Positions 4,483 through 58,286 of a DNA stretch of 64,000 nt are shown here, in pieces (position 1 is the stretch's first letter; the number at the start of each line of letters is the position of its first letter). The stretch is from Roseiflexus sp. GTDB taxonomy: Bacteria > Chloroflexota > Chloroflexia > Chloroflexales > Roseiflexaceae. Below the pieces are notes generated by a model. That model had not been told where the DNA came from. It worked only from the letters and a program-made list of their open reading frames with translations, and made no database searches. The DNA is taken from contig JANXAL010000084.1 in assembly GCA_025062325.1 (NCBI GenBank), positions 1 to 64,000 on the forward strand, in the 5' to 3' direction. The translations under genes were made by a program, and so were the position numbers.

Positions 4483-4502
4483 ATTGATGAGAGGACATCT
4501 TA

Positions 4503-5222: not shown

Positions 5223-5298
5223 GGGTTAAGGGTTGGGGGTTCGACGCTACTGCCCCTTTGCGTGCGTAACGAGAGGTGAGAGGCGCGAGGGTTACAGG
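5218..5298. repeat. Heptamer arrays overlapping the ThuA stop codon
   Basis: Four 7-bp units read GTTAGGG, GTTAAGG, GTTGGGG, GTTCGAC at 5218-5245, so the first unit contains the TAG stop of the preceding gene. A second set, GAGAGGT, GAGAGGC, GCGAGGG, TTACAGG, is at 5271-5298. Both keep strict 7-bp phase. Confidence 0.6.
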
Positions 5299-5304
5299 CG
5301 GAAG

Positions 5305-7050: not shown

Positions 7051-8045
7051 AGATCTGCATTTTTGGCGCAGGTTCGATCGGCAGTTACCTGGGTGCACGG
7101 CTGGCGCATGCGGGTGAGCAGGTGACGCTGATCGCGCGCGGCGCGAATCTGGCTGCCATCCGCGAACGCGGCGTGACGCTGATTGAGACCGACGGAACAA
7201 CGCTGACCGCCCGTCCTGCCCTAGCAACCGACGATCCGTCGGTCGCTGGCGCCCACGACGTCGTGATTGTTGCAGTCAAAGCGCATCAGTTGCCAGCGGT
7301 CGCACCCATGCTCCGCCCTTTGTTTCACGATGAAACGATTGTCGTCCCGGCGCAGAACGGCATTCCCTGGTGGTACTTCCAGCGACATGGCGGACCGTTC
7401 GAGGGACGGCGCATCGAGTCGGTCGATCCTGATGGCATTATCGCCGCCAACATCGAGACCGATCGCATCATTGGATGCGTTGTCTATCCGGCGACCGAGC
7501 TGGAAGCGCCGGGGATCGTTCGCCATATCGAGGGCGACCGGTTTACGCTCGGCGAACTCGATGGGTCGCGCAGCGAGCGGGTGCAGCGCCTTTCGCAGAT
7601 ACTGACGCGCGCTGGACTGAAGGCGCCGGTGCGTCCGCGCATCCGCACTGACATCTGGGTCAAACTATGGGGCAACTTGGCGTTCAACCCGGTCAGCGCG
7701 CTGACGCGCGCTACGCTGATCGAGATCTGCCGTCATCCGCAGGCGCGCGCGTTGATCGTCGCTATGATGGAAGAAGGACAGGCAGTCGCCGAACGCCTTG
7801 GCATCACGTTCGGCATTACCATCGATCAGCGCATTGCTGGCGCCGAGCAGGTTGGCGCGCACAAAACCTCAATGCTTCAGGACATCGAGGCAGGCAGAGC
7901 GACCGAAGTGGATGCGCTAGTGGGAGCAGTGGCCGAGCTTGGCAGGTTGGTTGATGTGCCAACACCGCACATTGATGCGATCTATGCCGCTGTCAAACTA
8001 TTGGAACACACAGTGACGCGCGCTACACCGCCTCGTTCCGTTTGA
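7047..8045 (+). CDS. panE: Ketopantoate reductase family protein (2-dehydropantoate 2-reductase)
   Basis: 332 residues. The N-terminal GAGSIGSYLGARL is the Rossmann NADPH-binding motif (residues 7-19). KLWGNLAFNPVSALT (about 208-222) is the hallmark of the ketopantoate reductase C-terminal domain and includes the conserved Lys and Asn around the active site. The reaction is reduction of ketopantoate to pantoate for coenzyme A synthesis, but many paralogues reduce other 2-oxo acids, so the symbol is tentative. Translationally coupled to the upstream acyl-CoA ligase. Its 3' end overlaps the convergent regulator gene by 23 bp. Confidence 0.8.
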   Translation: MKICIFGAGSIGSYLGARLAHAGEQVTLIARGANLAAIRERGVTLIETDGTTLTARPALATDDPSVAGAHDVVIVAVKAHQLPAVAPMLRPLFHDETIVVPAQNGIPWWYFQRHGGPFEGRRIESVDPDGIIAANIETDRIIGCVVYPATELEAPGIVRHIEGDRFTLGELDGSRSERVQRLSQILTRAGLKAPVRPRIRTDIWVKLWGNLAFNPVSALTRATLIEICRHPQARALIVAMMEEGQAVAERLGITFGITIDQRIAGAEQVGAHKTSMLQDIEAGRATEVDALVGAVAELGRLVDVPTPHIDAIYAAVKLLEHTVTRATPPRSV

Positions 8046-37918: not shown

Positions 37919-39880
37919 CTATACTCCGCCCACGGCCAGCGCACGCAATTCAGGCAGCGGCTGGTCTTCGCGCGGCATTTCGTGCAGCGCCGACTGGCTG
38001 CGCTGAACGATAAGGCGGAGCAAACGCACAGTGCGCTGCGCGTCATCCGACAGAGCGGCTTCCTCAAGATCGGCGATAAGTGCGAGAACATCAGGTGGCA
38101 CGAGACGACTGGCGTGCCGGGCGATGAAGATTTTGTCGTGGCTGGTGCGATCATACTGTTCGCCGGGCAAGAACAACTCTTCAAAGAGTTTTTCGCCCGG
38201 ACGCAGCCCGATGAAGGCAATATCAATGTCGCGCCCGACCTGTAATCCGGAGAGTTCGATCATATCGCGCGCCAGGTCAAGGATTTTGACCGGCTCGCCC
38301 ATGTCGAGCGTAAACACCTCGCCGCCTCGACCGAGCACTGCTGCCTGCAACACCAGTTGCACCGCTTCAGGAATGGTCATGAAATAGCGCCGCATCTCAG
38401 GATGGGTGACGGTCACCGGTCCGCCTGCTGCAATCTGCTGCTTGAACGTCCACACGACACTGCCGCGACTGCCAAGGACATTGCCGAAGCGCACCGCCAT
38501 GAATGCCCGCCCGCTGAGTTTCGCGGCGTGGTGAACCAGCAATTCGGCAGCGCGTTTGCTGCTGCCCATGATGCTGGTCGGATTGACGGCCTTATCGGTC
38601 GAAATCATGACAAAGCGTTCAACGCCGGTCACGATCGAGGCGTCGAGCAGGTTGCGCGTTCCCAGCACATTATTGGTGACCGCCTCGACCGGATTGGCCT
38701 CCATGAGCGGCACATGCTTGTGCGCTGCAGCGTGGAACACAATCTCTGGGCGGTACTGCTCGAATATGGAATGGATCCGTTCGGTGAAGCGGATGTCGGC
38801 GATAACCGTATGCAGAAGGGTTTTACCGCGCGCGGCGCCTGATCCATTGATCGTGGGGTCTGGTTGATTGCGAGCGTCATTCAGCCATTGTTGCAGCTCG
38901 TTATGAATAGCGAAGACGCTATTTTCGCCATGCCCGAGAATTATCAGATCCGACGGTTCATAGCGCAGCACATGGCGGCAGATTTCGCTTCCAATCGAGC
39001 CGCCGCCGCCGGTGACCATCACGCGTCGCCCGCGTATCAGGGCGCTTACCGCCTGCATATCAGTTTTGATCGGCTCACGCCGCAGCAGGTCTTCAATCTG
39101 CACATCACGAATATGGTTGACGCTGAAGCGGCCATCGACCAGTTCGGCGAGGCCAGGAATGATTTTCGCGCGCACGCCAGCGTGCTCGCAGATCGCCACA
39201 ATTTCGCGGATCGTTTTTCCAGGAGCGCTTGGCATGGCGATGATCACTTCATTGATGTTATGGTTAGCGACCAGATGAGGAATGTCGTGACGATTCCCCA
39301 GCACCGTTACACCGTTGATCCGCACGCCGCGCTTGCGAGGATTGTCATCGACAAAACCGACCACGACGGTGTTTCGTCGCGCAGTGCGCATGCTCTGCAC
39401 AATCATAGCCCCGGCCTCGCCCGCTCCCATGATCAGCACCCGATTGTTGCCGTACCGGGTGTGACGCGGGGGCGATGGATGAAAGCGAGCGTGCGCGCTC
39501 AGTCGCGGTAGCGCCGTCAGCGCCAGTGCAGGCATTAGAAAGATCAGCGGAACGGAGAGCGGCACCACTGGCAACGTTCCGATTAGAACGCGGCTGAATA
39601 TTGCAAGGCTCTCAAGAATGATCCCGGCGAGCGCCAATGCAAACGCCAGCAGGCTGAACTCGTATAATGACGCATAGCGCCAATACTGGGCATACACTCC
39701 TGTGACGGCGAAGATGGAGGGAACGACGATAACCGCCGCGCCTGCAAACAACGCAAACGATGCCCAGTATTCTCCGAGATTGAGGCGCTCGAGGCGCAAG
39801 GCATACCCGATGAATGCAGCAATGATCAGCGCTAGCACATCTATCCCATAAATGTAGAAGGCAGGCGTAGAACGTTGCAT
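37919..39880 (-). CDS. Membrane-bound nucleoside-diphosphate-sugar dehydratase (CapD/PglF-like)
   Basis: 653 residues from the ATG at 39880 (GGAGGTATGGC upstream; an in-frame start at 39901 lacks an RBS). Four N-terminal membrane helices (to about 120), a CoA-binding-like Rossmann region with GAGEAG (about 150), then the extended SDR domain with VTGGGGSIGSE (about 290) and the catalytic SIMGSSKR motif. Such enzymes form 4-keto-6-deoxy UDP-sugars from UDP-GlcNAc. With the DegT aminotransferase and acetyltransferases of this cluster it would give an amino-deoxy sugar. It is the last gene of the exopolysaccharide cluster. Confidence 0.9.
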   Translation of the reverse strand: MQRSTPAFYIYGIDVLALIIAAFIGYALRLERLNLGEYWASFALFAGAAVIVVPSIFAVTGVYAQYWRYASLYEFSLLAFALALAGIILESLAIFSRVLIGTLPVVPLSVPLIFLMPALALTALPRLSAHARFHPSPPRHTRYGNNRVLIMGAGEAGAMIVQSMRTARRNTVVVGFVDDNPRKRGVRINGVTVLGNRHDIPHLVANHNINEVIIAMPSAPGKTIREIVAICEHAGVRAKIIPGLAELVDGRFSVNHIRDVQIEDLLRREPIKTDMQAVSALIRGRRVMVTGGGGSIGSEICRHVLRYEPSDLIILGHGENSVFAIHNELQQWLNDARNQPDPTINGSGAARGKTLLHTVIADIRFTERIHSIFEQYRPEIVFHAAAHKHVPLMEANPVEAVTNNVLGTRNLLDASIVTGVERFVMISTDKAVNPTSIMGSSKRAAELLVHHAAKLSGRAFMAVRFGNVLGSRGSVVWTFKQQIAAGGPVTVTHPEMRRYFMTIPEAVQLVLQAAVLGRGGEVFTLDMGEPVKILDLARDMIELSGLQVGRDIDIAFIGLRPGEKLFEELFLPGEQYDRTSHDKIFIARHASRLVPPDVLALIADLEEAALSDDAQRTVRLLRLIVQRSQSALHEMPREDQPLPELRALAVGGV

Positions 39881-39894
39881 GCCATACCTCCTCT

Positions 39895-40572
39895 CTAGCA
39901 CGCCCAGGGCGCGACGCCAAATCGCAGCAGATAGTAGAACGTCTTGAGCAGTTCACCTGGCACAATCCAGCGACCCTCAGGATTGCGCCACCAGTCGGCA
40001 GGGGTATAGGGCGGGTTGCGCGGACCGTCGTAGATGGCAACGACCCCTGTATCCGCAAGATGCCGCTTGATCACGCACATTGCGCGCCGACTGTGGGGCC
40101 AGTCGGTCACGATCAGCACACGCTCGACCTTGCGTTCCTGCGCCATCCGCGCGATCTCGCGCCCGTCGGCCCACGTGCTGTCGGTGATAAGCGGCACAAA
40201 TGCTGAAGCGGGAACGCCTTGCTGGATTGCCAGACGCCGCGCCTTCTGGACAACCAGCGAGCCGTCAGGCGTTTCGCCAGTGCGCCAGATTTCGCGCCCG
40301 TATCCTTCCCGGTAGAGATCGATAGCGTGCTGGTCGCGCATTGGAAATCCGCCGCCCAACACCACAATCACATCGGCGGGCGCCGGACTCCCCGGCAATG
40401 CCAGCAGACCGCCAAGTGCGGGCAGCCACCAGCCAGCGCTGCCTGCCAGGATCGCAATCGTCACGAGGGCTGCGCCGCCGATGCGAACGAACAGACGCCT
40501 CGACCGTCTTGTCCAGCGTTCAGGCGCCATGCGCTGCGGCGCGGTGTCGTGATCCAGCGAACGGACGTTCAT
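39895..40572 (-). CDS. YdcF/ElyC family (DUF218) membrane protein
   Basis: 225 residues. One membrane helix (about 28-52) and the DUF218 core: ADVIVVLGGGFP, then TADGREIA-like text (DSTWADGREIARM) and VLIVTDWPHSRRA. The family includes ElyC, needed for undecaprenyl-phosphate-linked envelope polymer synthesis, and SanA. Start overlaps the aminotransferase stop by 4 nt. A role in lipid-carrier metabolism for the polysaccharide is inferred from family and location. Confidence 0.8.
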   Translation of the reverse strand: MNVRSLDHDTAPQRMAPERWTRRSRRLFVRIGGAALVTIAILAGSAGWWLPALGGLLALPGSPAPADVIVVLGGGFPMRDQHAIDLYREGYGREIWRTGETPDGSLVVQKARRLAIQQGVPASAFVPLITDSTWADGREIARMAQERKVERVLIVTDWPHSRRAMCVIKRHLADTGVVAIYDGPRNPPYTPADWWRNPEGRWIVPGELLKTFYYLLRFGVAPWAC

Positions 40573-41780
40573 AGTGCGTCTGCCATTTCCTCGCGTACAA
40601 TTGATCGCTCCAGACTCTCACGCAATCGCTGACAGACCATGTCCACCTGCGACTCGGTCATCACGCTGGAGAAGGGCAATGCCAGCGACATATCCCCCAA
40701 ACGCTCGGTGATCGGGAAATCGCCTCGCCGGAAACCGAACCGTTTGCGATAGAACGGTTGCAGATGGATCGGCGTAAAGTAGGGACGGCTGGGAATGCCT
40801 GCCGCTGCCAGATAGCGCATCACAGCGTCACGACTGGCGGGCGGTTTGATTCGCACCACATAGACGAACCAGCTCATCCGGGTCGTCGTGGCGCTGATGA
40901 TCGGGCGCTCGATCAGCTCGATGTCTGCCAACCGCTCGTTGTACCAGGCAGCGACCCGTTCGCGCTTTGCCAGCAGTTCATGAATGCGCTGCATCTGGAC
41001 GCATCCTAACGCTGCGCTCAGTTCATCAAGCCGGTAATTGAAACCGAGACGGGCGTGGTTCAACCATGCGTCGAAGACATCGCGGCCCTGATTGCGCAGA
41101 CTGCGCAGCAACGTCGTCCATTCTTCGTTGTTCGTCACGATCATGCCGCCTTCGCCCGTCGTGATCTGTTTATTTGGGTAGAAGGCGAAGACCGCAATGT
41201 CACCCAGCGTTCCTGCCGGACGACCGCGGTACTCTGAACCCAGAGCCTCGCAGGCGTCTTCGATCACGACCAGGTTACGACGCCGGGCGATAGCGACGAG
41301 AGGCGCCATATCTGCTGGCTGACCGAAGGCATGCACCGGCAGGATTGCCTTGACCCGACCATAGCGGCTGTTGCGCAGCGCTGGCGGCAGCCAGCGGCGC
41401 GCAGTCATTCCGCCGCGCGATAGATCGCTGATGGCAGCGTGCACCTGCTCTGGGTCGATGTTGCCGGTGATTGGATCGACATCGACGAAGATCGGAATGC
41501 CGCGCTCGTACAGAATGCAGTTGGCTGAGGCGATGAACGAGAACGGCGTGGTAACGACCAGATCATACTCCGCGACACCAGCAACAATGATGCTCAAGTG
41601 CAAACCGCTCGTGCCGGAACTAACCGCAACGCCGTAGCGTGCGCCAACAAACGCCGCAACGCGTTGCTCGAACTGTTGCACGTATGGTCCAATGCTCAAC
41701 ACCGGCGTATGCAGAACCTGCAGAACGGCCTTGCGTTCTGCGTCGGTCAGATCGGGCGATGACATTGGCACTGCGTCCAT
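40569..41780 (-). CDS. DegT/DnrJ/EryC1/StrS aminotransferase
   Basis: 403 residues, PLP-dependent sugar aminotransferase. The Schiff-base Lys is in FYPNKQITTGEGG (about 204-216), preceded by the DACEALGS motif that contacts the cofactor. The preferred start at 41780 follows AAAGGACGA. It would transfer an amino group from glutamate to a 4-keto sugar, most likely the product of the CapD-like dehydratase in this cluster. The ring position aminated cannot be told from sequence. Confidence 0.93.
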   Translation of the reverse strand: MDAVPMSSPDLTDAERKAVLQVLHTPVLSIGPYVQQFEQRVAAFVGARYGVAVSSGTSGLHLSIIVAGVAEYDLVVTTPFSFIASANCILYERGIPIFVDVDPITGNIDPEQVHAAISDLSRGGMTARRWLPPALRNSRYGRVKAILPVHAFGQPADMAPLVAIARRRNLVVIEDACEALGSEYRGRPAGTLGDIAVFAFYPNKQITTGEGGMIVTNNEEWTTLLRSLRNQGRDVFDAWLNHARLGFNYRLDELSAALGCVQMQRIHELLAKRERVAAWYNERLADIELIERPIISATTTRMSWFVYVVRIKPPASRDAVMRYLAAAGIPSRPYFTPIHLQPFYRKRFGFRRGDFPITERLGDMSLALPFSSVMTESQVDMVCQRLRESLERSIVREEMADAL

Positions 41781-41849
41781 ACTGTCGTCCTTTATGCTGA
41801 TTGCCTACCGGGTTGCGCTTCCCTCTGGCTGCGCCTTCGGTTCCATCAC

Positions 41850-42950
41850 TCACGTCGAGGCCTGACCACCCAACTCTCGCACCTGCCCCGCGTCTGGCGG
41901 CGGCAGCATCCGATATGCCGGGAAGTACTCCGCCTCGCGTGGCAGAGCGCATCCGTAGTACTCCGTCCACGCCTGACACAGATCGGCATACAATGCTGGC
42001 TGATGTATGCGTCGATAGATTGAAAACCGCAGGCGCAGCGGCGAAAAACTCGCTTTGAATTGGAAAATGCCATCATTCGGCCGGTAACCGCCGCCCAGAA
42101 TCAGACGGCGCTTCCCATGGCGCTGTCCCCATTGAATAGCGGCGTAGATAATTGCATGCGACGCCCGACAGTGCTGATAGTCCTTATCCAAACCGGCCAG
42201 GAAATCGTACATTTCTGCATCGTCATAGAGATAGAGCGCCATAGCAACGACCCGATTGGAACATTCCGCCATCAGGAAGAAAGAATGCTCCAGCAACTCC
42301 TCGTAGAACGACCAGAAATACTCAAATGAAAAAAAGTAACGCTCCAGGGCGCGACGCCGCTTCATCGTCTTGGTATAGATGTGGTAGCATTCCATAACAT
42401 CGGCCGTGTTCTGCGCCATGAAGACACGAACTCCTTCGCGCTGCGCCCGTCGAATGTTATATCGGGATTGATCTTCGAGGGATTGCTGCCACAGAGCCTT
42501 CTCTGAAAGCGTCAGATCAACTGCCACGATATCACGATCATAACGAACATCATCGGCGCACAACAGCCCGGTGTAGCGATCAGAAGGATGCAGATGCATA
42601 AATTCCGCTACAATCCGCTGCTCCTGACAAAATCGGCGCCAGCCTTCAATAAAGGCGCGCTGAAGTTCAGGCGTCACCGTTCCTAATCCGATCGGGCCGG
42701 TATATTCAGGCGTAATCGTATCCCAGTACGACGCATAGTGTCTGGCAAAGGGCAGATTGCTCACCGGGCGCAGAAAAAACGGATAGACGATTCGTCCTTC
42801 GTCTGACGCCACAGTGAACAATCGTGCCGGATAGCCAGTCTGCCGCTGAACGATCCTGGCATATCCGACGCTGCCAAGCACGCTAATGCGCGCTGGCAGC
42901 GCCTCCTCCCACGCTTCCCGATCGTCAGCCGTGTACACCCGTTCCTGCAT
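41850..42950 (-). CDS. FemAB/GNAT-fold aminoacyl- or acyltransferase
   Basis: 366 residues with the FemAB-type double-GNAT pattern: YPFFLRPV and YDTITPEYTGP-like N-terminal segment (YWDTITPEYTGPIG), then LWQQSLEDQSRYNIRRAQREGV and LILGGGYRPNDGIFQFKASF near the end. Proteins of this kind in polysaccharide loci (including exosortase-A-associated ones) are thought to attach amino acids or acyl groups to sugars. Start has GGAGGGGAGA. 30 nt from nadE. Confidence 0.78.
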   Translation of the reverse strand: MQERVYTADDREAWEEALPARISVLGSVGYARIVQRQTGYPARLFTVASDEGRIVYPFFLRPVSNLPFARHYASYWDTITPEYTGPIGLGTVTPELQRAFIEGWRRFCQEQRIVAEFMHLHPSDRYTGLLCADDVRYDRDIVAVDLTLSEKALWQQSLEDQSRYNIRRAQREGVRVFMAQNTADVMECYHIYTKTMKRRRALERYFFSFEYFWSFYEELLEHSFFLMAECSNRVVAMALYLYDDAEMYDFLAGLDKDYQHCRASHAIIYAAIQWGQRHGKRRLILGGGYRPNDGIFQFKASFSPLRLRFSIYRRIHQPALYADLCQAWTEYYGCALPREAEYFPAYRMLPPPDAGQVRELGGQAST

Positions 42951-42980
42951 TCTCCCCTCCTTCGCTCTCCTGATCGGGGC

Positions 42981-43985
42981 CTACTGACCGATGGTGATCG
43001 CCGCGTGCTCCTCAGCGCGCAGTTCCAGCGGCGGCATACGCAGGTACGCTGTCGTGCGTCGCTTGCGGGCAAAATCGTTGAAGGCGCGCCGTACCTGCAC
43101 TGGAGTCAGGTTCAGCGCTTCTGCCACATCCACCACCGGCACATGGCGCTCCTGCGCGTACCAGAGCAGATCCATCGTTTCAAACGGCAGCCGGAAGAAG
43201 AACTCCTGCTGTGTGGTTGGGGCGCTGTAAGTGTCGGATGTGGGCGGGCGACGCTGGATAACTTCTGGTACGTCGAGATAGCGCGCCAGTTGATAGATCT
43301 GCGTTTTGTACAGATGCACAATTGGGCGCAGATCGGCGCCGCCGTCACCGTACTTGACGAAGAACCCCTGATCGTGCTCATTCTTGTTTGGCGTGCCGAC
43401 GACCGCGTAGTTGCGCAGTTCAGCGTGGTAGTACGCCATCGCCATGCGCGCTCGCTGCTTGAAGTTCGAGGCGGCGACGATCTGGGCATATTCGCGCGGC
43501 GGCAGGCGTTTGCTCTTCACCTCGCCATTCGGCGTGATAATCTCCAGTGAAAAGACATTCAGCGTATCGGCTTCGAGCAGGTTCTGCGGCAGCACTATCC
43601 GCATCTTGTAGCCAAGAGCGGCGTCGTACTCCGGGAAGATCCGTCGCACGGCTTCGTCGCGGCGGCGGTAACAGCCAAACCCTTCGAGCACCGGCGTGAG
43701 GTCTTCCAGAATCGGCTCGACGCCATAGTGCCGTGCGACCATCTCTGACAGATGCACCGTCTGCGGGTCGGAGTCGCGCTCTGGCATCATCAGCGCAACC
43801 ACGCGCTGCGGGCCGAATGCACGGACGCAGAGCGCCAGCGTTACCGATGAGTCGATCCCGCCGCTGATTCCCAGCACAACCCCCTGACGATGCAGGGTTC
43901 TGACGACATGGTATTGCAACCAGTTGATGATGCGCTCTGTCTCAGCAGCAGCATCAATCTCCAGAACGCGTGTGTCAAACCCCAT
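42981..43985 (-). CDS. NAD synthase-like ATP pyrophosphatase (NadE family)
   Basis: 334 residues; there is no glutaminase domain. The ATP-pyrophosphatase P-loop SGGIDSSVTLAL is at about 41-52. The TPNKNEHDQGFFVKYGDGGADL segment (in parts) matches the NadE substrate loop. Ammonia-dependent NadE converts nicotinate adenine dinucleotide to NAD. Location next to AsnB in a sugar cluster makes a dedicated amide-forming role on a carboxylated sugar an alternative. The 3' part carries about 40 residues beyond the typical length. The ATG overlaps the asnB end by 11 nt. Confidence 0.82.
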   Translation of the reverse strand: MGFDTRVLEIDAAAETERIINWLQYHVVRTLHRQGVVLGISGGIDSSVTLALCVRAFGPQRVVALMMPERDSDPQTVHLSEMVARHYGVEPILEDLTPVLEGFGCYRRRDEAVRRIFPEYDAALGYKMRIVLPQNLLEADTLNVFSLEIITPNGEVKSKRLPPREYAQIVAASNFKQRARMAMAYYHAELRNYAVVGTPNKNEHDQGFFVKYGDGGADLRPIVHLYKTQIYQLARYLDVPEVIQRRPPTSDTYSAPTTQQEFFFRLPFETMDLLWYAQERHVPVVDVAEALNLTPVQVRRAFNDFARKRRTTAYLRMPPLELRAEEHAAITIGQ

Positions 43986-45975
43986 AGCCTCCTCCCACGG
44001 CTATGCCGCTTCTGATGCAGAGTTTCACGTCGTCTGCATCGGAGATTGGCGGCGGCTGACGAAAACCGCGAATAAACTGCTCGACCAGCAGTTGGGTCGA
44101 GAGGATCCCCACCAGCGCCATATCCTCAGTTTCGCTCAGACGGACGCCGGATTGCGCTTTTTCCTTCAAATGCGCAACTGCTGTCGGTTTGAACAGACCG
44201 TTCGCCCGGATGCAGTCCGGCGAGAGGAGATGCTGAACGTAGTCCAGGCGTGCGTCGTTGAAGAAGCTCCGATGAATTGGCGCCCGGTACGGTTGCTTGG
44301 GACGCTGCCAGATGGCGTCCGGCAGCCAGGCGCGACTGACCCGGCGCAGGATGTATTTCTCGGTGAGACCGCGTAATTTCAGACGCGGCGGCAGGCGATT
44401 GGCAAACTCAATCACGCGATGGTCGAGGAAGGGGAAACGTCCCTCAACGGCATGCGCCATCAGCATCCGATCGCCCTGGGCGGAGAGGAGATACTGCGAG
44501 AGAAAGGTGGTGATCTCCAGATATTGCGCCTGATGGAGCGGATCCCACGAACCGAACGTCTCCGGATAGCGCGGCGCACGATCCGTCGGCTGCGCCAGTG
44601 CGTCGGCGGCCTGGCGCACCTCGTCGCTGAAGAAACGGCGCGTGCGGCTGGTGGTGCGCCAGCGTGGACGATGCGAGTAATCCGGCGCGGCTGTATCGAT
44701 GAGCCCTTCGCTGAAGAATGCTGCCACGTATGCAACATTGCTATTCGCAAATCCGGCGATCCAGGGGTAGAGACGGCGAAATAGCAGCGGCCGTAGATGC
44801 GACGATGGCTGGCGCGCCCAAAATCGCCGCACCTTCGCCTCCTTGAAGATATCGTAGCCCGCCAGAAACTCATCAGCGCCTTCGCCGGTCAGCACTACGC
44901 GATAGGAATGGGCGCGCACCAACTGGGAAAGGATGAACAGCGGCGCAGGCGATGTGCGCAGGATTGGCATTTCGGCATGCCAGATCACCTCCGGAAAGAC
45001 GCGCCCGATGTCGGCATGCGTCACAAACGCCACCTGATGGTCAGTGCCAAGACACTGCGCCATCTGACGCTGGAACGGACTCTCATCGAACTCAGGATCG
45101 CTGAAGGCAATCGAAAACGTGTCAAGACGATTGCTGGCGTACCGGCGCACAATCGCCGCGACAGTCGAGGAATCCAGCCCGCCGCTGAGGTACGCCCCAA
45201 CCGGCACATCAGCCCGCAGTCGGATCTTTGTAGCGTCGATCAGCAGCTCGCGCAGCTCTTCAACATACTCCTCCTCGCTGCGTTCCTTCTCGGGAACGCT
45301 AAACTCAAGGCGCCAGTACGGTTGAACATCGATGTGCCCGTGTCGCGCAATCAGGTAATGACCTGGGGGCACGTCAACGATGTCCTGAAAAATAGTTCGT
45401 GGTGAGAGAGTTCCCCAGAAGGTGAAAATCTGCTCCAGCGCCACCGGGTCGATCACGCGCCGCACGCGCGGCTCAGCCAGAATCGCTTTGATTTCTGACG
45501 CAAAGATCAGTGTTCCGTCGACGAAGGTATAGAACAGCGGGAGAATGCCAACCCGGTCGCGCGCCAGGAAGAGCGCTTGCTCGCGCGCGTCCCAGATGGC
45601 TATTGCAAACTGTCCGTTGAGATGCGCAAGGCACGCCGGACCGTACTCCTCATAGAGGTGCAGGATCACCTCAGTATCGGTGTTGGTCGTGAAGCGGTGC
45701 CCGCGCGCCTCGAGATCGGGGCGCAGTTCCACGTAGTTAAAAATCTCGCCGTTGAACACGATCCAGTATCTTTCGTCTTCGCTGGCGATCGGTTGCTGCC
45801 CGCCGCTCAGATCGATAATGCTCAGCCGCGCATTGCCCAGACCGGCTCGATTGTCGAGATAGATGCCGAACTGGTCTGGACCGCGATGCCGGATCATGGC
45901 CAGCATCTGCCGCAGCGTTGCTTCGGCAATTGGATGATCGCCCCGAACGTTGACAATCCCCACAATTCCGCACAT
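43975..45975 (-). CDS. asnB: Asparagine synthase (glutamine-hydrolysing)-like amidotransferase
   Basis: 666 residues from the ATG at 45975, which exposes the catalytic Cys2 (MCGIVGIV); a longer frame upstream is not needed. Residues 1-210 form the class II glutaminase domain, and the synthetase domain has the P-loop LSGGLDSSTVAA. In exopolysaccharide clusters such proteins amidate sugar carboxylates or aminoacyl groups instead of making free asparagine; that is inference here. RBS AGGAGT lies upstream. Overlaps nadE by 11 nt. Confidence 0.9.
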   Translation of the reverse strand: MCGIVGIVNVRGDHPIAEATLRQMLAMIRHRGPDQFGIYLDNRAGLGNARLSIIDLSGGQQPIASEDERYWIVFNGEIFNYVELRPDLEARGHRFTTNTDTEVILHLYEEYGPACLAHLNGQFAIAIWDAREQALFLARDRVGILPLFYTFVDGTLIFASEIKAILAEPRVRRVIDPVALEQIFTFWGTLSPRTIFQDIVDVPPGHYLIARHGHIDVQPYWRLEFSVPEKERSEEEYVEELRELLIDATKIRLRADVPVGAYLSGGLDSSTVAAIVRRYASNRLDTFSIAFSDPEFDESPFQRQMAQCLGTDHQVAFVTHADIGRVFPEVIWHAEMPILRTSPAPLFILSQLVRAHSYRVVLTGEGADEFLAGYDIFKEAKVRRFWARQPSSHLRPLLFRRLYPWIAGFANSNVAYVAAFFSEGLIDTAAPDYSHRPRWRTTSRTRRFFSDEVRQAADALAQPTDRAPRYPETFGSWDPLHQAQYLEITTFLSQYLLSAQGDRMLMAHAVEGRFPFLDHRVIEFANRLPPRLKLRGLTEKYILRRVSRAWLPDAIWQRPKQPYRAPIHRSFFNDARLDYVQHLLSPDCIRANGLFKPTAVAHLKEKAQSGVRLSETEDMALVGILSTQLLVEQFIRGFRQPPPISDADDVKLCIRSGIAVGGGYGV

Positions 45976-46016
45976 TGAGAGACTCCTGTGTTTGCGACGA
46001 CTCGACGGGCTGAGCA

Positions 46017-46057
46017 GAGACGTTGCACTGGGTGGAGACGTTGCAATGCAACGTCTC
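46017..46057. repeat. Palindromic GAGACGTTGCA element
   Basis: GAGACGTTGCA (46035-46045), A, TGCAACGTCTC (46047-46057) is a perfect 11-bp palindrome, preceded by another direct copy of GAGACGTTGCA at 46017-46027. It lies between the acyl-CoA ligase and asnB genes and can form a hairpin in the mRNA. Similar AGAGACGTTGCA palindromes are dispersed in cyanobacteria and Chloroflexota. Confidence 0.7.
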
Positions 46058-46069
46058 TGCCGCATCCCG

Positions 46070-47617
46070 TCACCCATCCGTCTTCCCGGCCAACTCCCGA
46101 CGCGCAATCTTCCCCGATGTGTTCACTGGCAGTTCGTCGCGGAACTCTACGTACTGCGGCACCATGAAATCTTCCAACCGTGCGCGGCAGTGCGCCAGAA
46201 TCTGCTTTTCGGTCAGATCAGGGTTCTTTGTGACAACAAACGCCTTGATCGCCTGCCCGAGGATTGGGTCGGGCACGCCGACAACCGCCACTGCCGCCAC
46301 TCCCGGCAGTTCGTAGATCACGTTCTCAACTTCTTTGGGAGCGACTTTCTCGCCGCGACTTTTGATAATGTCGTCCTTGCGTCCGACAAAGTAGAGATAC
46401 CCGTCTTCGTCCATACGGAACAGGTCGCCGGTGTAGCAGACGCGCTCACCCGGCAACGGACCAGGACGGTACCGTTGCGCCGTCGCTTCCGGCGCCTCCC
46501 AGTACCCGCGCATGACATGTCGACCGCGCACTACCAGCTCGCCGACTTCGCCGGGTCCCAGGCGGTTGCCCTGTTCGTCTTCCAGCCAGACCTCGGTGCC
46601 AGGAATGGCGATGCCTACTGAGCCGGGACGCCGATCCAGCTCTTCTGGCGGCAAGTAGAGAGTGCGCTTGGTTTCGGTCAAGCCATACATTGAGTAAATG
46701 CGCACCCATGGGAACTTCCGACGCAACTCCAGCACGTGGCTTGGCGGCAGCGCAGCGGCGGTATTTGTCATGTACCGGATGCTCGAGAGATCGTACTGGC
46801 TCAGGTCCATCTGCAGCAGCATCGCATAGATTGTCGGCACGCCGGGGAACCCGGTAACCCGCTCTTCCTCGACGCGTTTGAGGATTGCCGCCGGATACGC
46901 AAACGAGCGTTCGAGCACCAGCCTGCCGCCAAAACGAACGGTCATCAGGAGTTGATAGAGACCGTAATCGAAGGAGAGCGGCAGCATGTTGATAACGACA
47001 TCGTCCTCGACATTGTGCAGGTACTCGATAATTGAACCGCTGACGAAGACCACGTTGCTGTGATCGCTCATAACGCCCTTCGGCTCGCCAGTGCTGCCCG
47101 AGGTATAGATCAGGCATGCCAGATCGAGATCGATGTTGACGCGCGGGAGGGGCGTTGCGTCATACTGCGTCTGCACCTCGTCGAAATCGATGAAGCGAGG
47201 ATGCGCCAGACGGGTCTCGGCGCGCTGATTGCAGAGCACGCCAACCTGCAGCGATGGCGCGTTTTGCAGCAATGCCGAGAGTTGAACATCCCGGATCTGT
47301 GCATCGGCGATAATTGCCGAGGCGCGGCAGTTGTTCAAAATGGAGGTCAGTTTGTCCTGTTTGGTGGTGTGGTTGATGACCACGAAGACGCCCCCCGCCT
47401 TGAGCGCAGCGAAGATTCCAACCACCGCTTCGACCGAGTTGGGCGCGAAGATTGCCACCCGGTCGCCGCGTCGGACGCCGCGCTCGACGAGTGCATGCGC
47501 CAGGCGATTGGTCATCTGATCGAGATCGCGGTAGGTCAGCCGCCTGCCGTCGCAGACGAGCGCCACTTTATCCGGCAGGCGCGCGGCGCTGTTGGTGAGA
47601 AAATCATGGACGAGCAT
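46070..47617 (-). CDS. AMP-forming acyl-CoA/acyl-ACP ligase of the polysaccharide cluster
   Basis: 515 residues from the ATG at 47617 (frame open further upstream, but the ACP gene ends there). The ANL motifs LIYTSGSTGEPKGV, YGLTETKRTLYLP and YTGDLFRMDEDGYLYFVGRKDD are intact, as is the C-terminal NTSGKIARRE lysine motif. Being translationally next to an ACP gene, it most likely loads a carboxylic acid on that carrier. Similar ligases occur in exosortase-A-associated clusters. The acid is not predictable. Confidence 0.9.
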   Translation of the reverse strand: MLVHDFLTNSAARLPDKVALVCDGRRLTYRDLDQMTNRLAHALVERGVRRGDRVAIFAPNSVEAVVGIFAALKAGGVFVVINHTTKQDKLTSILNNCRASAIIADAQIRDVQLSALLQNAPSLQVGVLCNQRAETRLAHPRFIDFDEVQTQYDATPLPRVNIDLDLACLIYTSGSTGEPKGVMSDHSNVVFVSGSIIEYLHNVEDDVVINMLPLSFDYGLYQLLMTVRFGGRLVLERSFAYPAAILKRVEEERVTGFPGVPTIYAMLLQMDLSQYDLSSIRYMTNTAAALPPSHVLELRRKFPWVRIYSMYGLTETKRTLYLPPEELDRRPGSVGIAIPGTEVWLEDEQGNRLGPGEVGELVVRGRHVMRGYWEAPEATAQRYRPGPLPGERVCYTGDLFRMDEDGYLYFVGRKDDIIKSRGEKVAPKEVENVIYELPGVAAVAVVGVPDPILGQAIKAFVVTKNPDLTEKQILAHCRARLEDFMVPQYVEFRDELPVNTSGKIARRELAGKTDG

Positions 47618-47939
47618 AGGTTTCTCCCAGGGCAATTGAGGAAAGCGGCGCGCTGACAGCGACGGCTTCCTGCGCGCCGTTCGCAAGCTTGCGCACGACA
47701 TATTCCGAGAGCTTCTTCACCGAGTCAAAGTTGTCGGGGGTCAGTTCATGATCGGCGACACTAATGCCGAACTGCGTTTCAATGAACGAGACCAGTTCGA
47801 TAACGCCAAGCGAGTCCACAATCCCCCGCTCGAGGAACGAGTCGTCGTCGCTGTAGACGAAGCCCTCGTCGCCAAACAGCAGATTGTGGGTAATGTAGCT
47901 GCGAATCTGAGATGAAATATCCATCGCAGTGAGCTGCAT
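47604..47939 (-). CDS. Acyl carrier protein
   Basis: 111 residues. The phosphopantetheine attachment site is Ser43 in the motif DSLGVIELV. The N-terminal helix and the FGISVADHEL helix-loop are typical, with a C-terminal extension of about 25 residues. RBS AAGGAGGAT is well placed. Its 3' end overlaps the ligase start by 14 nt, so the two are translated together. It probably carries the acyl or aminoacyl group used by the GNAT or FemAB-like transferases of this cluster. Confidence 0.9.
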   Translation of the reverse strand: MQLTAMDISSQIRSYITHNLLFGDEGFVYSDDDSFLERGIVDSLGVIELVSFIETQFGISVADHELTPDNFDSVKKLSEYVVRKLANGAQEAVAVSAPLSSIALGETYARP

Positions 47940-47954
47940 ACCTGGTATCCTCCT

Positions 47955-48620
47955 TCATGTGACAATCTCGCGCACGAGCATGAACGCTTCCGCTGCCATC
48001 AGACCGGCAGTGCTGCCGCGTACCTGCGCCAGCGCCTCCACGGCGCGCAGCGAGCGGGGATGGGGCGGCTGTTTGAGTTCGTTGCGAAAACAGGCGAGCG
48101 CCTGGAGTTTGAGTTCCAGAACATCGCTAATATCCACAAACACGGTCGGTTTGAAGGCGCTCTCCTCAATCGGCGACGCCCAATCGGTCTCCGAGAGGGT
48201 TTCGTAGCAGAGCAACCGGCGAACGGGACAGCGGTTGATCGGGCGCGCCGCCACCAGCGTCGCTAGGTAGACGGCTTTGTGATCAACATGCAGGTCGCCG
48301 CCGAAGGGGGTATAGACTACATCGGCGCGCACAGAGAAGATCACCTCGCGGATCGCGTCCGCCAGTTCGTGCCCCGGCACCATGTCGAGCCGCGGCGCCG
48401 GGAAGTTGAGAAAGAAGATGCCCGAACCGCCAAGCAGCTCGTGCGCCTTCTGTGAGTCCTGCCGATCCTCTTCGTCCCGTTCCGGTGAAAAAATCTCCGG
48501 AGCGCCGCGTGTGACAATCAGGGCATAGACCGGATCACCTTGCGCGACATGACGCGCCGTGACCCCGCCGCATCCAAGCACCTCATCATCGGGATGCGCT
48601 GCTACCACCAGGACATTCAT
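47955..48620 (-). CDS. PIG-L family N-deacetylase
   Basis: 221 residues from the ATG at 48620 (GAGGAGGAGTGGC upstream). The zinc-binding AAHPDDEVLGCGG motif is at 7-19, and DLHVDHKAV near the middle supplies the second His pair. PIG-L/LmbE enzymes remove acetyl groups from GlcNAc-type sugars. It is 15-16 nt from each neighbour and, with the GNAT gene upstream, points to a sugar whose amine is freed and re-acylated. Confidence 0.9.
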   Translation of the reverse strand: MNVLVVAAHPDDEVLGCGGVTARHVAQGDPVYALIVTRGAPEIFSPERDEEDRQDSQKAHELLGGSGIFFLNFPAPRLDMVPGHELADAIREVIFSVRADVVYTPFGGDLHVDHKAVYLATLVAARPINRCPVRRLLCYETLSETDWASPIEESAFKPTVFVDISDVLELKLQALACFRNELKQPPHPRSLRAVEALAQVRGSTAGLMAAEAFMLVREIVT

Positions 48621-48636
48621 GCCACTCCTCCTCGTT

Positions 48637-49500
48637 CTAAAACACATCGCTCAACAGCAAACTGAAGCGTATCGACGGAGGGTGATCTGTCAACGGCGCA
48701 TAACACAGGCGCAGGCGATAATCGGTATGGCGTTCCATGGTCGCCGGATCGAGACCGATCGTCCGAGCGTGCACGCCAGTCATGCGCACCTGCCGCGCAC
48801 CAGCATATGTCGCCAGCGCTCCTAGGTCGTCTGCCGCCGCCTCCGGTCGTTCGGTTAGCACATCGAGCACAGTAAGCGTGGTATCGCACTCGATTTTGTA
48901 GATGACAGCAAGCCGACCATTCACCAGTTCGGCGTGGTACGGGCACGCCAGACTGCGCCACTGCCGGTATGTCTCATCGCGCGGAGGTCCTGCCTCATCG
49001 GTCAGGCGCAAGTGCGGCAACGCTACGATGCTTCGCGGCGGACCGCTCGGCTTTGTCGGGTGCCAGTTGTACAGTTCGGTCTCGATCAGCGTTTTCCACC
49101 CGAAAGCGCGCTGAAACAGCGCATATGAATTCTTGTTCGGAAACCCCAGGATAAATGGCGCTCCCTCAGCCCGCGCCGCTTCGGTCGTCGTCGCTACCAG
49201 CCGGTAAAAGGCGGGAAACCCGCGATACTCGGGGTGGAGCATCAGACTCATTGCCAGATAGTAGCGGTATGCCTTCCCATTGGCATCCGTCAGGACATGC
49301 GGCACGAGCGCGTGATGCCCGACCAGTTGATCGCCGTTCCAGCCCAAAGCTACAATGGCATCGCCGTATGGGTTGGCGAAATAGAATTGCGACCACGCAA
49401 TCCTGTCTGGACGATAGCCAAACGTGCTGCAAAACAGACGCTCGACCGCCTCGAACACCGACTTCGCCTCACGGGCGGACCGGATAAGCGTGACACGCAT
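48637..49500 (-). CDS. GNAT family N-acyltransferase
   Basis: 287 residues. The N-terminal half contains the GNAT core: VGHHALVPHVL, YRYYLAMSLMLHPEYRGFPAFYRLV (in parts) and GFPNKNSYALFQRAFGW near 120-140. The second half is of unknown fold. A role in acylating an amino sugar is suggested by its place between the sugar transferase and the deacetylase. The substrate is unknown. Confidence 0.7.
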   Translation of the reverse strand: MRVTLIRSAREAKSVFEAVERLFCSTFGYRPDRIAWSQFYFANPYGDAIVALGWNGDQLVGHHALVPHVLTDANGKAYRYYLAMSLMLHPEYRGFPAFYRLVATTTEAARAEGAPFILGFPNKNSYALFQRAFGWKTLIETELYNWHPTKPSGPPRSIVALPHLRLTDEAGPPRDETYRQWRSLACPYHAELVNGRLAVIYKIECDTTLTVLDVLTERPEAAADDLGALATYAGARQVRMTGVHARTIGLDPATMERHTDYRLRLCYAPLTDHPPSIRFSLLLSDVF

Positions 49501-49512
49501 ACCTCACTGTCC

Positions 49513-50166
49513 TTACGACTGTCTGACGTGATGCGCTTCGGATGTATTCCCCTGCGTCTGAGCCAGTACACCAAGAAATTCGGGAATCTGACCGTTGGCG
49601 CTGCGCTCGACCCCCTCGCGCGTCAGCACCACCCGCATTGTGCCGAACAGGATGCGCAGATCGGTCCAGAGGCTAATGTGATCGACATACCAGACATCGT
49701 GCGCCAGAATTTCGTCCCATGTCTGATTGCTGCGCCCGTGGAGCACCGCCTCACACGTTATGCCGGGCAGCACGTCGAGACGCCGACGCTGTTCGGGGGT
49801 ATACCGGTCGATGTATCTCATCAGCAGCGGTCGCGGCCCGACCAGGCTCAGCTCGCCGCGCAGGACGTTGAACAACTGCGGCAGTTCGTCCAAGCTTGTG
49901 CTGCGCAGGAATTTGCCAAACGGCGTGAGACGCTGCTCGTCGGGCAACAGGTTGCCCTGCGCGTCGCGCGCGTTGGTCATGCTGCGGAACTTGTAGAGTT
50001 TGAATGGTTTCCCGTCCTTTCCAGCGCGCTCCTGGGTGAACAACACCGGTGATCCCATCTTGATGCGGATCAGCAGGGCAAGGATCGCCATGAACGGCGC
50101 GAGCAAAATGAGCGCTGGAACAACCAGAATCAGGTCCAGTGCACGTTTGCCGTATCTGCGATACAT
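49513..50166 (-). CDS. Priming undecaprenyl-phosphate sugar transferase (bacterial sugar transferase)
   Basis: 217 residues from the ATG at 50166 (AGGAGGACTGTTG upstream). A re-entrant membrane helix at 9-33 is followed by the PF02397 signature: FTQERAGKDGKPFKLYKFRSM, then RSTSLDELPQLFNVLRG and SLVGPRPLL (in parts). The small monotopic form corresponds to PglC. It puts the first sugar phosphate on the lipid carrier to start repeat-unit assembly. A 7-bp GCCTGCC...GGCAGGC hairpin lies 35 bp upstream. Confidence 0.93.
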   Translation of the reverse strand: MYRRYGKRALDLILVVPALILLAPFMAILALLIRIKMGSPVLFTQERAGKDGKPFKLYKFRSMTNARDAQGNLLPDEQRLTPFGKFLRSTSLDELPQLFNVLRGELSLVGPRPLLMRYIDRYTPEQRRRLDVLPGITCEAVLHGRSNQTWDEILAHDVWYVDHISLWTDLRILFGTMRVVLTREGVERSANGQIPEFLGVLAQTQGNTSEAHHVRQS

Positions 50167-50294
50167 CAACAGTCCTCCTGTGTTATGCATGTCTCACAAT
50201 GCCTGCCCCTGAGCGGCAGGCGCCAGCTTCGGCATGCTCAGCCAACGTCGATCACCAGACAGTCAACGTATGGTTCAAGGGCGACAGGAACTGC

Positions 50295-55667: not shown

Positions 55668-58286
55668 CTAGCGCGAAGGCTCGATCCTGATAATGCGCGC
55701 CGCGTGACCATCGAGCGAAAATGCATCTGTGATCAGATAGTTGTGCGAGACCTTGAAAGGTATGTCTACACCCGTATCTGCATCAATGAGACGTTGAGGC
55801 GCCTTATCGAACCCTATTGCGCGCCAATCGATAGTTAATACCGTCGTTGTTGCATTCTCTGCTGTGTTGTACATCGTCAAATAATCCTTGCCAAAGCGTT
55901 CGATAAGGATGCCATTCGTGGCAAATGCGTATGGAACCGGCTGCCAACCGGCGACATTCAACGCATGAACGGTATGCAGATGACGCTGATATGCCTGCAT
56001 TGCTCGTTGACCGGGCGGATCGCTCCATAAATATCGATCTTGCTTAGGACCATACCTGTCGATGTTGATATAGATTCCTTTTGCGGTGTAGAGCGGAAGA
56101 TAGCGGCGAATCTGATCCAGAAATTCGTCATCACGAGTTGCACGATCGAAAGGAACCGTGAATGTGACAGGTCGCTGATTCGCCGCCATTCGTATCCGAT
56201 TGATCAGGCGCACTTTGTTCGCCAATGTCTCATCGTAAAACTCGTCGACTAATCGTCCGTCGCGTTCAATTTTGACAAATTCCTCTACGATATAATCCGA
56301 TTCCTGATATAGAATTCCGCTGATCGGCGCGCCGCTCGTCGCAATCGGCGCATCGTCGGGCAGCGAGGCGCGCAGCGCGCGTAGAAACCCTAGCGTTGTC
56401 AAATGTTCGAGCGCCACGACGCGACCGGTCGCGCGGTCGTAGCTGAGCGGCAACGACGCTACGCGCAGCGCGCGCGGGTTGAAATCAGGGCGCAAATAGA
56501 CCCCGACAGTGTCCACGGCGACGCCGTGATAGAGATTTGTTCCCTCTTCGGGATGCGTATCAAGGTATGCCGGACCATAGAGGCCGTTGGCGCGCTTGAC
56601 CACTTCCAGGTTCAATTCGCCAAAGTTGCGCACAATCGTGGGAGCGGATGTGGTGCGAGGCTCATTCGACAACACTGCATCAATGCCGGGGTCAGGATTG
56701 ATGCCGTCGAAGAGGCAACGGCGAACCCCTGGTTCCCACGGCACTTCAATGATCATCGAGGCGAAACTTATCGAATTGAGCCAGCGTCCGTCCGCGTCCT
56801 GCAGCAGCGACGCTTCAAATGGCGCAGGCAGACGAAACTTGCCGATCAGAAAGTTCGGTCCGTCGCTGACCGTCATCTGATACGCCTCGACGCGCTGCCA
56901 ACCGCTGCCCCGCTCGCGATCAAGCACTGGCCCATACATCTTTCCGCTGCTTCGTTGTCTGGTGCAGGTCGCAAATGGATACGAACCGGTGCACGTTTCA
57001 GCAAACGGCTGCCGCCCCTGATCAATATCCCTATACAGAGCAAGGCAGGCGGCAATATCCGTTTCCCAGGACTCGTCGCTTCCTCCAGTTGCGGGGTAGA
57101 CTTTCAGTCGCATACCCCGGTCGTAGTACCCATGGGGCCAGATATAGACCAGGTCATCGACGCCGAAACGCCGGTTCTGCGCCTTGTACCGTCCCCAGAC
57201 GGCGCCGATCCGATAGTCGTGCGGGTTGGGAAAGGCGTCGTAACTGTACTCCTCCAGCACAACCATGGTCGTTTTGCGCGGCAATCGGCCAATGTGCGCT
57301 TGAGGATAAATGGCAATATATTTCGCGTATGCTGAGCGCAACCCCCAAGACGGTTCATCCGGCACGAAGAGTGACAGCGCAAAGGACACTGTGTTCTTGA
57401 AGCGAATGTGCTCGTTGTAGATGCCGAGATGGAAACATGCATCATACGAGCGACGCTGCGCATCGTAACGAACATAATATGTCGCCGGTCGGTCAGGATT
57501 AATAGAAAGCGCCAGACCCAAATGATCATCGCTAATAAGATTGATTCCGTTCAGGTTTATATCGAGATCCGTTTTCATATGAAATGTGCCATCTCCGAAC
57601 GATCCGATATCTATCAATGGTTGAAGGACCGTTTTGTACGGATCTCGCCGTTCCACGATCTTTTCGCGGTCATCGAGATGGTGGTACCAATACTTACCAA
57701 TAAGATCGATAGGAATTTGCAGACAGGCTTCGAGAGCACGAGACGGTGTCGAGAGATCAGTATTCGTGATGGTAACCGCAAGATCGATCCGATTCGGATG
57801 CTCCGTCCACGTCTCGACGACCTGCAGCGCAGAGGCGCGGCTCTCGCGGGTAATCACCAGGGCGTTGGCGCTCCGCTCCGAGCGTACAACCGATGCACTG
57901 CGAGGATCGAGCATTGTCTGCCCCCAGGGATCGAAGAGATGGACGGCAATGGTGTCGCCTGCCAACGGAAAGGTGCGCTGCTGGACTTCGATGCGCGTGA
58001 ACCGGTTTTCCCGGCTGTCAAACATCAGCGCCAGCCCATCCCTTGTTCGCAGCGTTATTACCCTGGTCGCCGCATCCGGAAGCATCTCAGTCAATGCCGC
58101 AGTAGCCGTCGGCACGACAGTTGGCGATGCGGCGACTAGCGTTGCTGAAGCAGCGGCTGGCACACCGGTAGCCTGCGGTCTGATCGTGGGCGCAGTCGCG
58201 CTTTCCGATCCGCACGCGGCAATCACTGCGACCAGCAGCGCTACACTGGCGATCCATCCCCCGATTTTCAGCAGGACTGGATTCAT
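55668..58286 (-). CDS. Large exported lipoprotein, possibly glycoside-hydrolase-like
   Basis: 872 residues. Signal peptide with lipobox VAVIAAC (Cys near 25), then a Thr/Pro/Ala-rich linker to about 75. The body starts with a beta-rich domain and ends with a segment resembling an alpha/beta barrel followed by a beta-sandwich ('YLTMYNTAENATTTVLTIDW'). No family is recognised with confidence. Position inside the exopolysaccharide cluster suggests a surface protein that trims or binds the polymer. The adaptor gene is 10 nt upstream. Confidence 0.6.
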   Translation of the reverse strand: MNPVLLKIGGWIASVALLVAVIAACGSESATAPTIRPQATGVPAAASATLVAASPTVVPTATAALTEMLPDAATRVITLRTRDGLALMFDSRENRFTRIEVQQRTFPLAGDTIAVHLFDPWGQTMLDPRSASVVRSERSANALVITRESRASALQVVETWTEHPNRIDLAVTITNTDLSTPSRALEACLQIPIDLIGKYWYHHLDDREKIVERRDPYKTVLQPLIDIGSFGDGTFHMKTDLDINLNGINLISDDHLGLALSINPDRPATYYVRYDAQRRSYDACFHLGIYNEHIRFKNTVSFALSLFVPDEPSWGLRSAYAKYIAIYPQAHIGRLPRKTTMVVLEEYSYDAFPNPHDYRIGAVWGRYKAQNRRFGVDDLVYIWPHGYYDRGMRLKVYPATGGSDESWETDIAACLALYRDIDQGRQPFAETCTGSYPFATCTRQRSSGKMYGPVLDRERGSGWQRVEAYQMTVSDGPNFLIGKFRLPAPFEASLLQDADGRWLNSISFASMIIEVPWEPGVRRCLFDGINPDPGIDAVLSNEPRTTSAPTIVRNFGELNLEVVKRANGLYGPAYLDTHPEEGTNLYHGVAVDTVGVYLRPDFNPRALRVASLPLSYDRATGRVVALEHLTTLGFLRALRASLPDDAPIATSGAPISGILYQESDYIVEEFVKIERDGRLVDEFYDETLANKVRLINRIRMAANQRPVTFTVPFDRATRDDEFLDQIRRYLPLYTAKGIYINIDRYGPKQDRYLWSDPPGQRAMQAYQRHLHTVHALNVAGWQPVPYAFATNGILIERFGKDYLTMYNTAENATTTVLTIDWRAIGFDKAPQRLIDADTGVDIPFKVSHNYLITDAFSLDGHAARIIRIEPSR

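Follow-up and report, generated by a model that had tools for sequence, protein, structure and literature searches.

The 64,000 nucleotides (nt) of Roseiflexus sp. DNA analysed here (assembly GCA_025062325.1, contig JANXAL010000084.1, positions 1 to 64,000; hereafter, the window) carry a polysaccharide locus in which genes for a GNAT acyltransferase, a PIG-L/LmbE-type deacetylase, an acyl carrier protein (ACP), and an AMP-forming ligase follow one another. This locus probably directs the synthesis of a surface polysaccharide whose amino sugar bears a variable N-acyl group, supplied via a replaceable ACP cassette. Comparison of gene orders shows that a predicted acyl cassette, flanked by pglC-GNAT-PIG-L on one side and by degT on the other, is replaceable; within the genus of the window, it would comprise the ACP, the ligase, an AsnB-like amidating enzyme, a NadE-like ATP pyrophosphatase (NadE2), and a FemAB-like protein. 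That an amino sugar is acylated from an ACP is a well-supported prediction, because the cassette is swapped in relatives and because the quartet of ACP, ligase, AsnB, and NadE2 is joined in Azospirillum to a deacetylase, a GNAT protein, and glycosyltransferases. A sequence-only reading of the window had suggested such acylation, with an N-acetyl group being removed and replaced by the ACP-bound acid. This suggestion appears right in kind and is partly supported, while its unit of conservation and its acceptor amine need correction.

Exchange of Acyl Cassettes in Related Genomes

A search with the GNAT protein (E <= 1e-8) over 400 Chloroflexota genomes recovered the gene in 11, five from the window's genus and six from the same order, with PIG-L beside it in 11/11. 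In the five genomes of the genus, ACP and ligase come next after GNAT-PIG-L. In G001, one of these five, the contig ends after the first 38 residues of the ligase; the idea that G001 had lost the quartet, considered when no ligase was found there at E 1e-90, was rejected on that account. At the six same-order loci (L115-L120), a NeuD/PglD homologue takes the place of the quartet after pglC-GNAT-PIG-L, accompanied by an ACP or a stretch resembling one.

Cassette II (L115, L116, L118, and L120) continues with KASIII and a phosphopantetheinyl transferase, to which L116, L118, and L120 add a ligase and a second ACP-like protein; the contig of L115 stops early. The NeuD/PglD-type N-acyltransferase of L118 scored 181.9 bits against TIGR03570, above the cut-off of 160.8, and a FabG-type reductase was scored in the same locus. 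Cassette III (L119) begins with a NeuD-type protein that has an ACP-like extension, after which come FkbH, a phosphopantetheinyl transferase, and an Acyl_transf_1 protein; L117 contains NeuD, ACP, KASIII, a second ACP-like frame, and FkbH. The extension in L119 lies at the C-terminus of the NeuD/PglD-type protein (6757-7791, minus strand; PP-binding, E 0.038), carrier and sugar acyltransferase being apparently fused.

Past the cassette, DegT was found in four of the six cases (L116/L128, with wzx between, L118/L126, L119/L127, and L120/L129), and in L127 ydcF and flaA1 adjoin it; the contigs of L115 and L117 end short of the DegT position. Genome G029 carries its own cassette (L119) at the locus, and three quartet genes (AsnB, NadE2, and ACP) at another site (L061). 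Since other acyl-making machinery stands at the same position in relatives, this position holds different cassettes. Each of these cassettes includes a NeuD/PglD-type N-acyltransferase of its own, an indication that the acceptor is the amine made by DegT.

Recurrence of the ACP-Ligase-AsnB-NadE2 Quartet

The quartet was traced through NadE2, which was searched at E <= 1e-60 in the 400 Chloroflexota genomes and in 392 genomes of Planctomycetota, the phylum of L021 (a record named Pirellulales). This gave 13 places in 13/400 genomes of the first set and 20 places in 19/392 genomes of the second, and 30 of the 33 places were read (13/13 and 17/20; G719, G601, and G658 were left out), with gene presence scored by tblastn at E <= 1e-4. 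All four genes were found in 22 of the 30 loci (11/13 and 11/17). Among 117 plasmid records with NadE2, nine loci were read (Sinorhizobium, Mesorhizobium (2), Shinella, Roseateles, and Azospirillum (4)), and all nine have the four genes. ACP-ligase-AsnB-NadE2 is thus a recurring quartet in Chloroflexota, Planctomycetota, and proteobacterial plasmids; no description of it as a recurring unit was found in the open-licence papers searched. The ACP serine is kept in 31/31 aligned sequences, and the SGGxDS motif in 29/30 sequences of the AsnB set, the exception being L064. In favour of the quartet as a unit, pairwise distances of the four proteins correlate over 21 loci (r 0.72-0.89; 0/2000 permutations as high), although such a correlation is obtainable from shared ancestry alone and the loci are not independent.

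The conserved unit proposed by the sequence-only reading, GNAT-PIG-L-ACP-ligase, was confined among the loci read to the window's genus. Elsewhere GNAT-PIG-L and ACP-ligase occur separately, and PglC-GNAT-PIG-L recurs as a module apart from the quartet; in quartet loci outside the genus, searches with the GNAT and PIG-L proteins of the window returned no match at 1e-4. The expectation of the same four genes in other polysaccharide loci therefore failed for the literal block outside the genus and held for similar blocks. Nor are these four the full set: the sequence-only reading had missed AsnB and NadE2, with which this ACP and ligase usually occur.

Several features beside the quartet were recorded. 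In L064, the matches to AsnB at 1e-4 (26-27% across roughly 200 residues) are at a distance from the other genes and the extracted sequence lacks SGGxDS, so that they were left uncounted; if counted, 23/30 loci would have all four genes. WbuX/WbpG-like N-acetyl-sugar amidotransferases stand beside the ACP-ligase-NadE2 sets without AsnB in L064 (8752-9780, minus strand; 140.2 bits) and L099 (5438-6586, minus strand; 114 bits), both under the cut-off of 203.2, and their presence where AsnB is missing fits a need for amidation. Large related proteins (875-936 residues) occur in three Chloroflexota quartet loci, L056 (16196-19006, minus strand; weak BNR matches), L057 (10703-13507, plus strand), and L058 (3534-6161, minus strand). 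One in-frame TAG each goes with the ligase match in L010 (G002) and with the NadE2 matches in L051 (G026) and L052 (G029). A family of about 370 residues without Pfam match lies beside the quartet in Roseateles, Shinella, and Mesorhizobium (L133, 4140-5216, plus strand; L134, 4105-5214, plus strand; L135, 10024-11139, minus strand); these "hypothetical" proteins were considered as GNAT-like, which neither Pfam nor profile comparison confirmed. In L097, two alpha/beta hydrolases (4459-6269, plus strand) precede AsnB-ACP-NadE2-ligase, a pair reminiscent of the exosortase-A exopolysaccharide gene set.

Association of the Quartet with Deacetylases and GNAT Proteins

In four of 12 Azospirillum records, all plasmids (A. 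ramasamyi, A. brasilense, A. lipoferum, and Azospirillum sp. TSH58), the locus was read and the order is the same in 4/4: two GT4 genes, a CE4 polysaccharide deacetylase, ACP, ligase, AsnB, NadE2, and GNAT. The A. ramasamyi GNAT scored 26.0 bits against Acetyltransf_9 (cut-off 25), and the other three were assigned by 71-98% identity. In Planctomycetota, a CE4 deacetylase directly follows NadE2 in L085, L088, L090, L091, and L092 (scored in L091, the rest by identity); these loci have a wider gene order in common and were counted as one event. A CE4 protein lies near the set in L064, and an Acetyltransf_9 GNAT follows NadE2 in the Pirellulales locus L021.

These associations bear on a narrower form of the proposed acylation, in which PIG-L strips an N-acetyl group and GNAT then puts the ACP-bound acid on the amine so exposed, much as NodB, NodA, and NodF do. 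In its favour, GNAT and PIG-L are adjacent in all 11 genomes recovered, with an ACP cassette after them, and the Azospirillum and Pirellulales loci above agree with it. Against it, the Azospirillum GNAT is not significantly similar to that of the window (BLAST E 0.34), a Pfam family being common to both, and GNAT and PIG-L stay constant while the cassette changes, with a separate NeuD-type N-acyltransferase in the relatives' cassettes. Because PIG-L and GNAT remain whatever the cassette, removal and replacement of an N-acetyl group would be only one of two live readings, and this exchange is regarded as possible rather than probable. The broader part of the earlier proposal, an ACP-borne acid on an amino sugar, draws support from the cassette swap and from Azospirillum.

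Another explanation, which we consider rather unlikely, is that the quartet serves general metabolism, with a lipid or an amide metabolite as one conceivable product, and is located here by chance, and that the PIG-L/GNAT pair does something else. Quartets without a GNAT or deacetylase found alongside, that of S. meliloti included, agree with it. It accords poorly with the position of the quartet, which occupies the site of the relatives' other ACP cassettes, and with its joining to a deacetylase and/or GNAT in several lineages. That the family names are literally right, giving a FadD-like coenzyme A (CoA) ligase, an NAD synthase, an asparagine maker, and a spare fatty-acid ACP, is most improbable: library family names and the retained SGGxDS loop and GFFxKxGDG region of solved NadE in NadE2 suit it, but the genome has another NadE (in a 698-residue frame, G000:C89), the four genes co-occur across phyla, and the S. 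meliloti ligase homologue described below did not act as a FadD.

Clues to the Ligase Substrate

The window ligase has Asp at the A4 position, where the Asp of amino-acid adenylating enzymes binds the amino group. Among 30 aligned ligases of NadE2 loci, the window included, 24 have this Asp (five from the window's genus), compared with 0/6 controls with data. The position is Gly in L021, in 4/4 Azospirillum, and in Shinella and Roseateles, Cys in L059, L060, L062, and L063, and Ala in L097. The Asp was therefore rejected as decisive for a loaded amino acid and kept as a lead; it may fit amino acids in one ligase branch. An Arg follows the G-x-TE motif (GLTETK in the window) in 30/30 rows of one alignment and 16/16 of another, some rows being in both, and in 0/5 CoA-ligase controls with data (three were gapped there). 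It is also present in the ligase of the KASIII cassette of L116. This Arg would fit an acid with a second charged group.

Proposed Pathway

From the families assigned, the following pathway is predicted. The FlaA1-type dehydratase and DegT would make a nucleotide-linked 4-amino sugar, both enzymes required for it being present by family, and the PglC-like protein would load this sugar on a lipid carrier. The ligase would adenylate an acid and load it onto the ACP, and AsnB, perhaps with NadE2 (ATP- and ammonia-using by family), would amidate the acid or its ACP-bound form, for which the acid would bear a carboxylate. GNAT or the FemAB-like protein may then pass the acyl group to the sugar amine, either the one made by DegT or one exposed by PIG-L, both readings being live.

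Acetyltransf_9 was the sole Pfam match of the window GNAT at E 0.001, and the NodA model was unmatched. Its predicted structure (predicted local distance difference test, pLDDT, 80.8) best matches GNAT acetyltransferases of Bacillus anthracis and Enterococcus faecalis in the PDB (3n7z and 2i00; template modelling score about 0.6), with Eis proteins lower in the list; whether it uses CoA or ACP thioesters cannot be read from these matches. Homology of the Azospirillum GNAT to FemAB was unsupported.

More tentatively, the quartet might be a mobile unit that builds an amide-bearing thioester on the carrier, aminoacyl in the branch with the A4 Asp. A GNAT or FemAB-like enzyme would then deliver it, the acceptor being either a 4-amino sugar or a deacetylated one; this would amount to a tRNA-independent aminoacylation of polysaccharide. 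If so, the orphan S. meliloti ACP SMb20651 would gain a type of function. Through the comparison, a largely uncharacterised four-gene set that occurs in rhizobia, Azospirillum, Planctomycetota, and Chloroflexota gains a definite position within a sugar pathway. Since the quartet stands where relatives carry recognisable acyl-making cassettes, its product should be findable by glycan mass spectrometry.

A number of observations weigh against the proposed ACP-borne acylation by a replaceable cassette and against the quartet as a strict unit. At the relatives' loci, only one of ten ACP-like stretches scored above the Pfam PP-binding cut-off, seven being below it and two unmatched. These other cassettes use a NeuD-type N-acyltransferase, and the window, in which no left-handed beta-helix enzyme of the NeuD/PglD type was found among the 11 genes scanned (37919-50190), leaves the transferase to be predicted; the FemAB-like candidate gave a poor model (pLDDT 50.4) and had no PDB relative by sequence at E 0.01. 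Five of the 30 NadE2 loci lack one or two quartet genes (L061, whose contig begins just before AsnB so that the ligase is not visible, L064, L093, L095, and L099), and NadE2 stands alone in three (L087, L089, and L100). ACP and ligase (34% and 39% identical) occur together in L014 and L015, where no AsnB or NadE2 match was found in the 4.5 kb examined. The remaining quartet loci outside the window's genus, including S. meliloti, gave no GNAT or deacetylase by the queries used, several contigs being short; because many quartets are found without either gene, the quartet alone does not imply sugar acylation.

Comparison with Known Systems

The O-polysaccharide R-group genes of Flavobacterium psychrophilum (wfpC-G and pglE/pglF) resemble the window in a PglF/PglE-type 4-amino sugar, an ACP specific to the O-polysaccharide, and N-acyl-group genes that vary between strains (PMC6519341). 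In that system, the acid is predicted to be the product of ketosynthases and a reductase, and a PglD homologue is predicted to move the acyl group from the dedicated ACP to UDP-Qui2NAc4NH2 (PMC6519341). The window instead has ligase, AsnB, and NadE2 and is without a PglD homologue. These genes are closer to the relatives' cassette II than to the cassette of the window. Our comparison suggests that acyl cassettes are interchangeable, like these O-antigen R-group genes (PMC6519341), also in a phototrophic lineage that is distant from the examples known so far. The viosamine island of Pseudomonas syringae (vioA, vioB, vioS, vioR, and acp) likewise has a sugar aminotransferase, an ACP, and an acyl group on the 4-amine; it differs in its KASIII, reductase, and VioB, and ligase, AsnB, and NadE2 are not among the genes named in the accessible text (PMC3927599).

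In Sinorhizobium meliloti, asnB, ACP, ligase, and nadE are adjacent and 42-56% identical to the window in the aligned parts. This operon (L112) is 99.7% identical over its length to NC_003078.1 (strain 1021), and we infer that it is the SMb20650/SMb20651 operon. It differs from the window in gene order and as a stand-alone operon with no sugar-polymer genes annotated beside it. As members of the SMb20651 operon, work of 2009 by Ramos-Vega reportedly lists an ammonium-dependent NAD synthetase together with an asparagine synthetase and an acyl-CoA ligase. The same work is said to have found C12/C18 acylation of the SMb20651 ACP in E. coli, a result that would argue against an amino acid. In a later study, smb20650 (ligase) is cotranscribed with smb20651 (ACP) and its expression yields the acylated form of SMb20651 in E. 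coli; the ligase gene was unable to take the place of fadD, neither supporting growth on oleate nor removing free fatty acids in fadD mutants (PMC7232532). The function of SMb20651 is said in another paper to need further study (PMC5686131); our comparison offers a testable idea for this ACP, whose function is there called open.

The exopolysaccharide genes of exosortase A/PEP-CTERM systems are alike in that the TIGR03098 ligase is the best NCBIfam model for the window ligase (490.3 bits) and the TIGR03108 amidotransferase the second-best for AsnB (459.8 bits); they differ in that both window proteins fall under the curated cut-offs (592.35 and 816.9). Those loci have a pyridoxal-phosphate decarboxylase, and NadE2 stands in its place here. 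For the Nod factor, the NodB deacetylase, the NodA N-acyltransferase, and the NodF ACP serve one sugar with a fatty acyl donor; the window shares a deacetylase, a predicted N-acyltransferase, and an ACP, and differs in a GNAT that matches no NodA model.

Gene Content of the Window Locus

GNAT, PIG-L, ACP, ligase, and the genes onward through the FlaA1/WbpM-type dehydratase all lie on the minus strand (Table 1). Gene starts are internal ATG codons chosen by the analyst, from which the coordinates and gaps follow. The direct succession of the first four, with ACP and ligase overlapping (by 14 nt), was confirmed. Of the interval 47604-49500 taken for the block, GNAT, PIG-L, and ACP are properly included, and only the first 14 nt of the ligase are covered; the run does not end at the ligase, since AsnB, NadE2, FemAB-like, DegT, YdcF-like, and dehydratase genes continue it. 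The spacing is 16 nt for GNAT/PIG-L, 30 nt for PIG-L/ACP, 94 nt for ligase/AsnB, -11 nt for AsnB/NadE2, 30 nt for NadE2/FemAB-like, 69 nt for FemAB-like/DegT, -4 nt for DegT/YdcF-like, and -7 nt for YdcF-like/dehydratase.

Table 1. Genes of the polysaccharide locus in the window, with family assignments.
Feature	Coordinates	Strand	Assignment
PglC-like sugar-phosphate transferase	49513-50190	-	Bac_transf; constant flank
GNAT acyltransferase	48637-49500	-	Pfam Acetyltransf_9, 31.0 bits (cut-off 25)
PIG-L/LmbE-type deacetylase	47955-48620	-	Pfam PIG-L, 88.3 bits (cut-off 28.2); AHPDDE motif
Acyl carrier protein	47604-47924	-	PP-binding, 27.1 bits (cut-off 20.8); Ser in GIVDSLGV
AMP-forming ligase	46070-47617	-	AMP-binding, 324.7 bits, and C-terminal domain
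AsnB-like glutamine-dependent amidating enzyme	43975-45975	-	MCG start, SGGLDS
NadE-like ATP pyrophosphatase (NadE2)	42981-43985	-	PRK00876 subfamily; NF002048, 505.5 bits (cut-off 313)
FemAB-like protein	41850-42950	-	PF02388, 42.4 bits (cut-off 24); possible alternative transferase within the cassette
DegT-type sugar aminotransferase	40569-41780	-	DegT, 366.7 bits; constant flank
YdcF-like protein	39895-40572	-	
FlaA1/WbpM-type nucleotide-sugar dehydratase	37919-39901	-	Polysacc_synt_2, 378.8 bits; flank

The nearest NCBIfam model of the PIG-L protein is BshB1 (66.6 bits, under the cut-off of 182.5). Upstream of pglC are two GT4 genes and HlyD- and Wzz-like genes; the place of wzy is taken by a protein that matches nothing in Pfam, and that of wzx by one with a MatE match under the cut-off. 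The ligases of G002-G005, from the window's genus, are 90-95% identical to that of the window, and the named records whose ligases are 93-95% identical to it comprise two Roseiflexus metagenome-assembled genomes (MAGs) and one Chloroflexota MAG. Within the locus, a protein of 872 residues (55668-58286, minus strand) is 71-91% identical across the window's genus.

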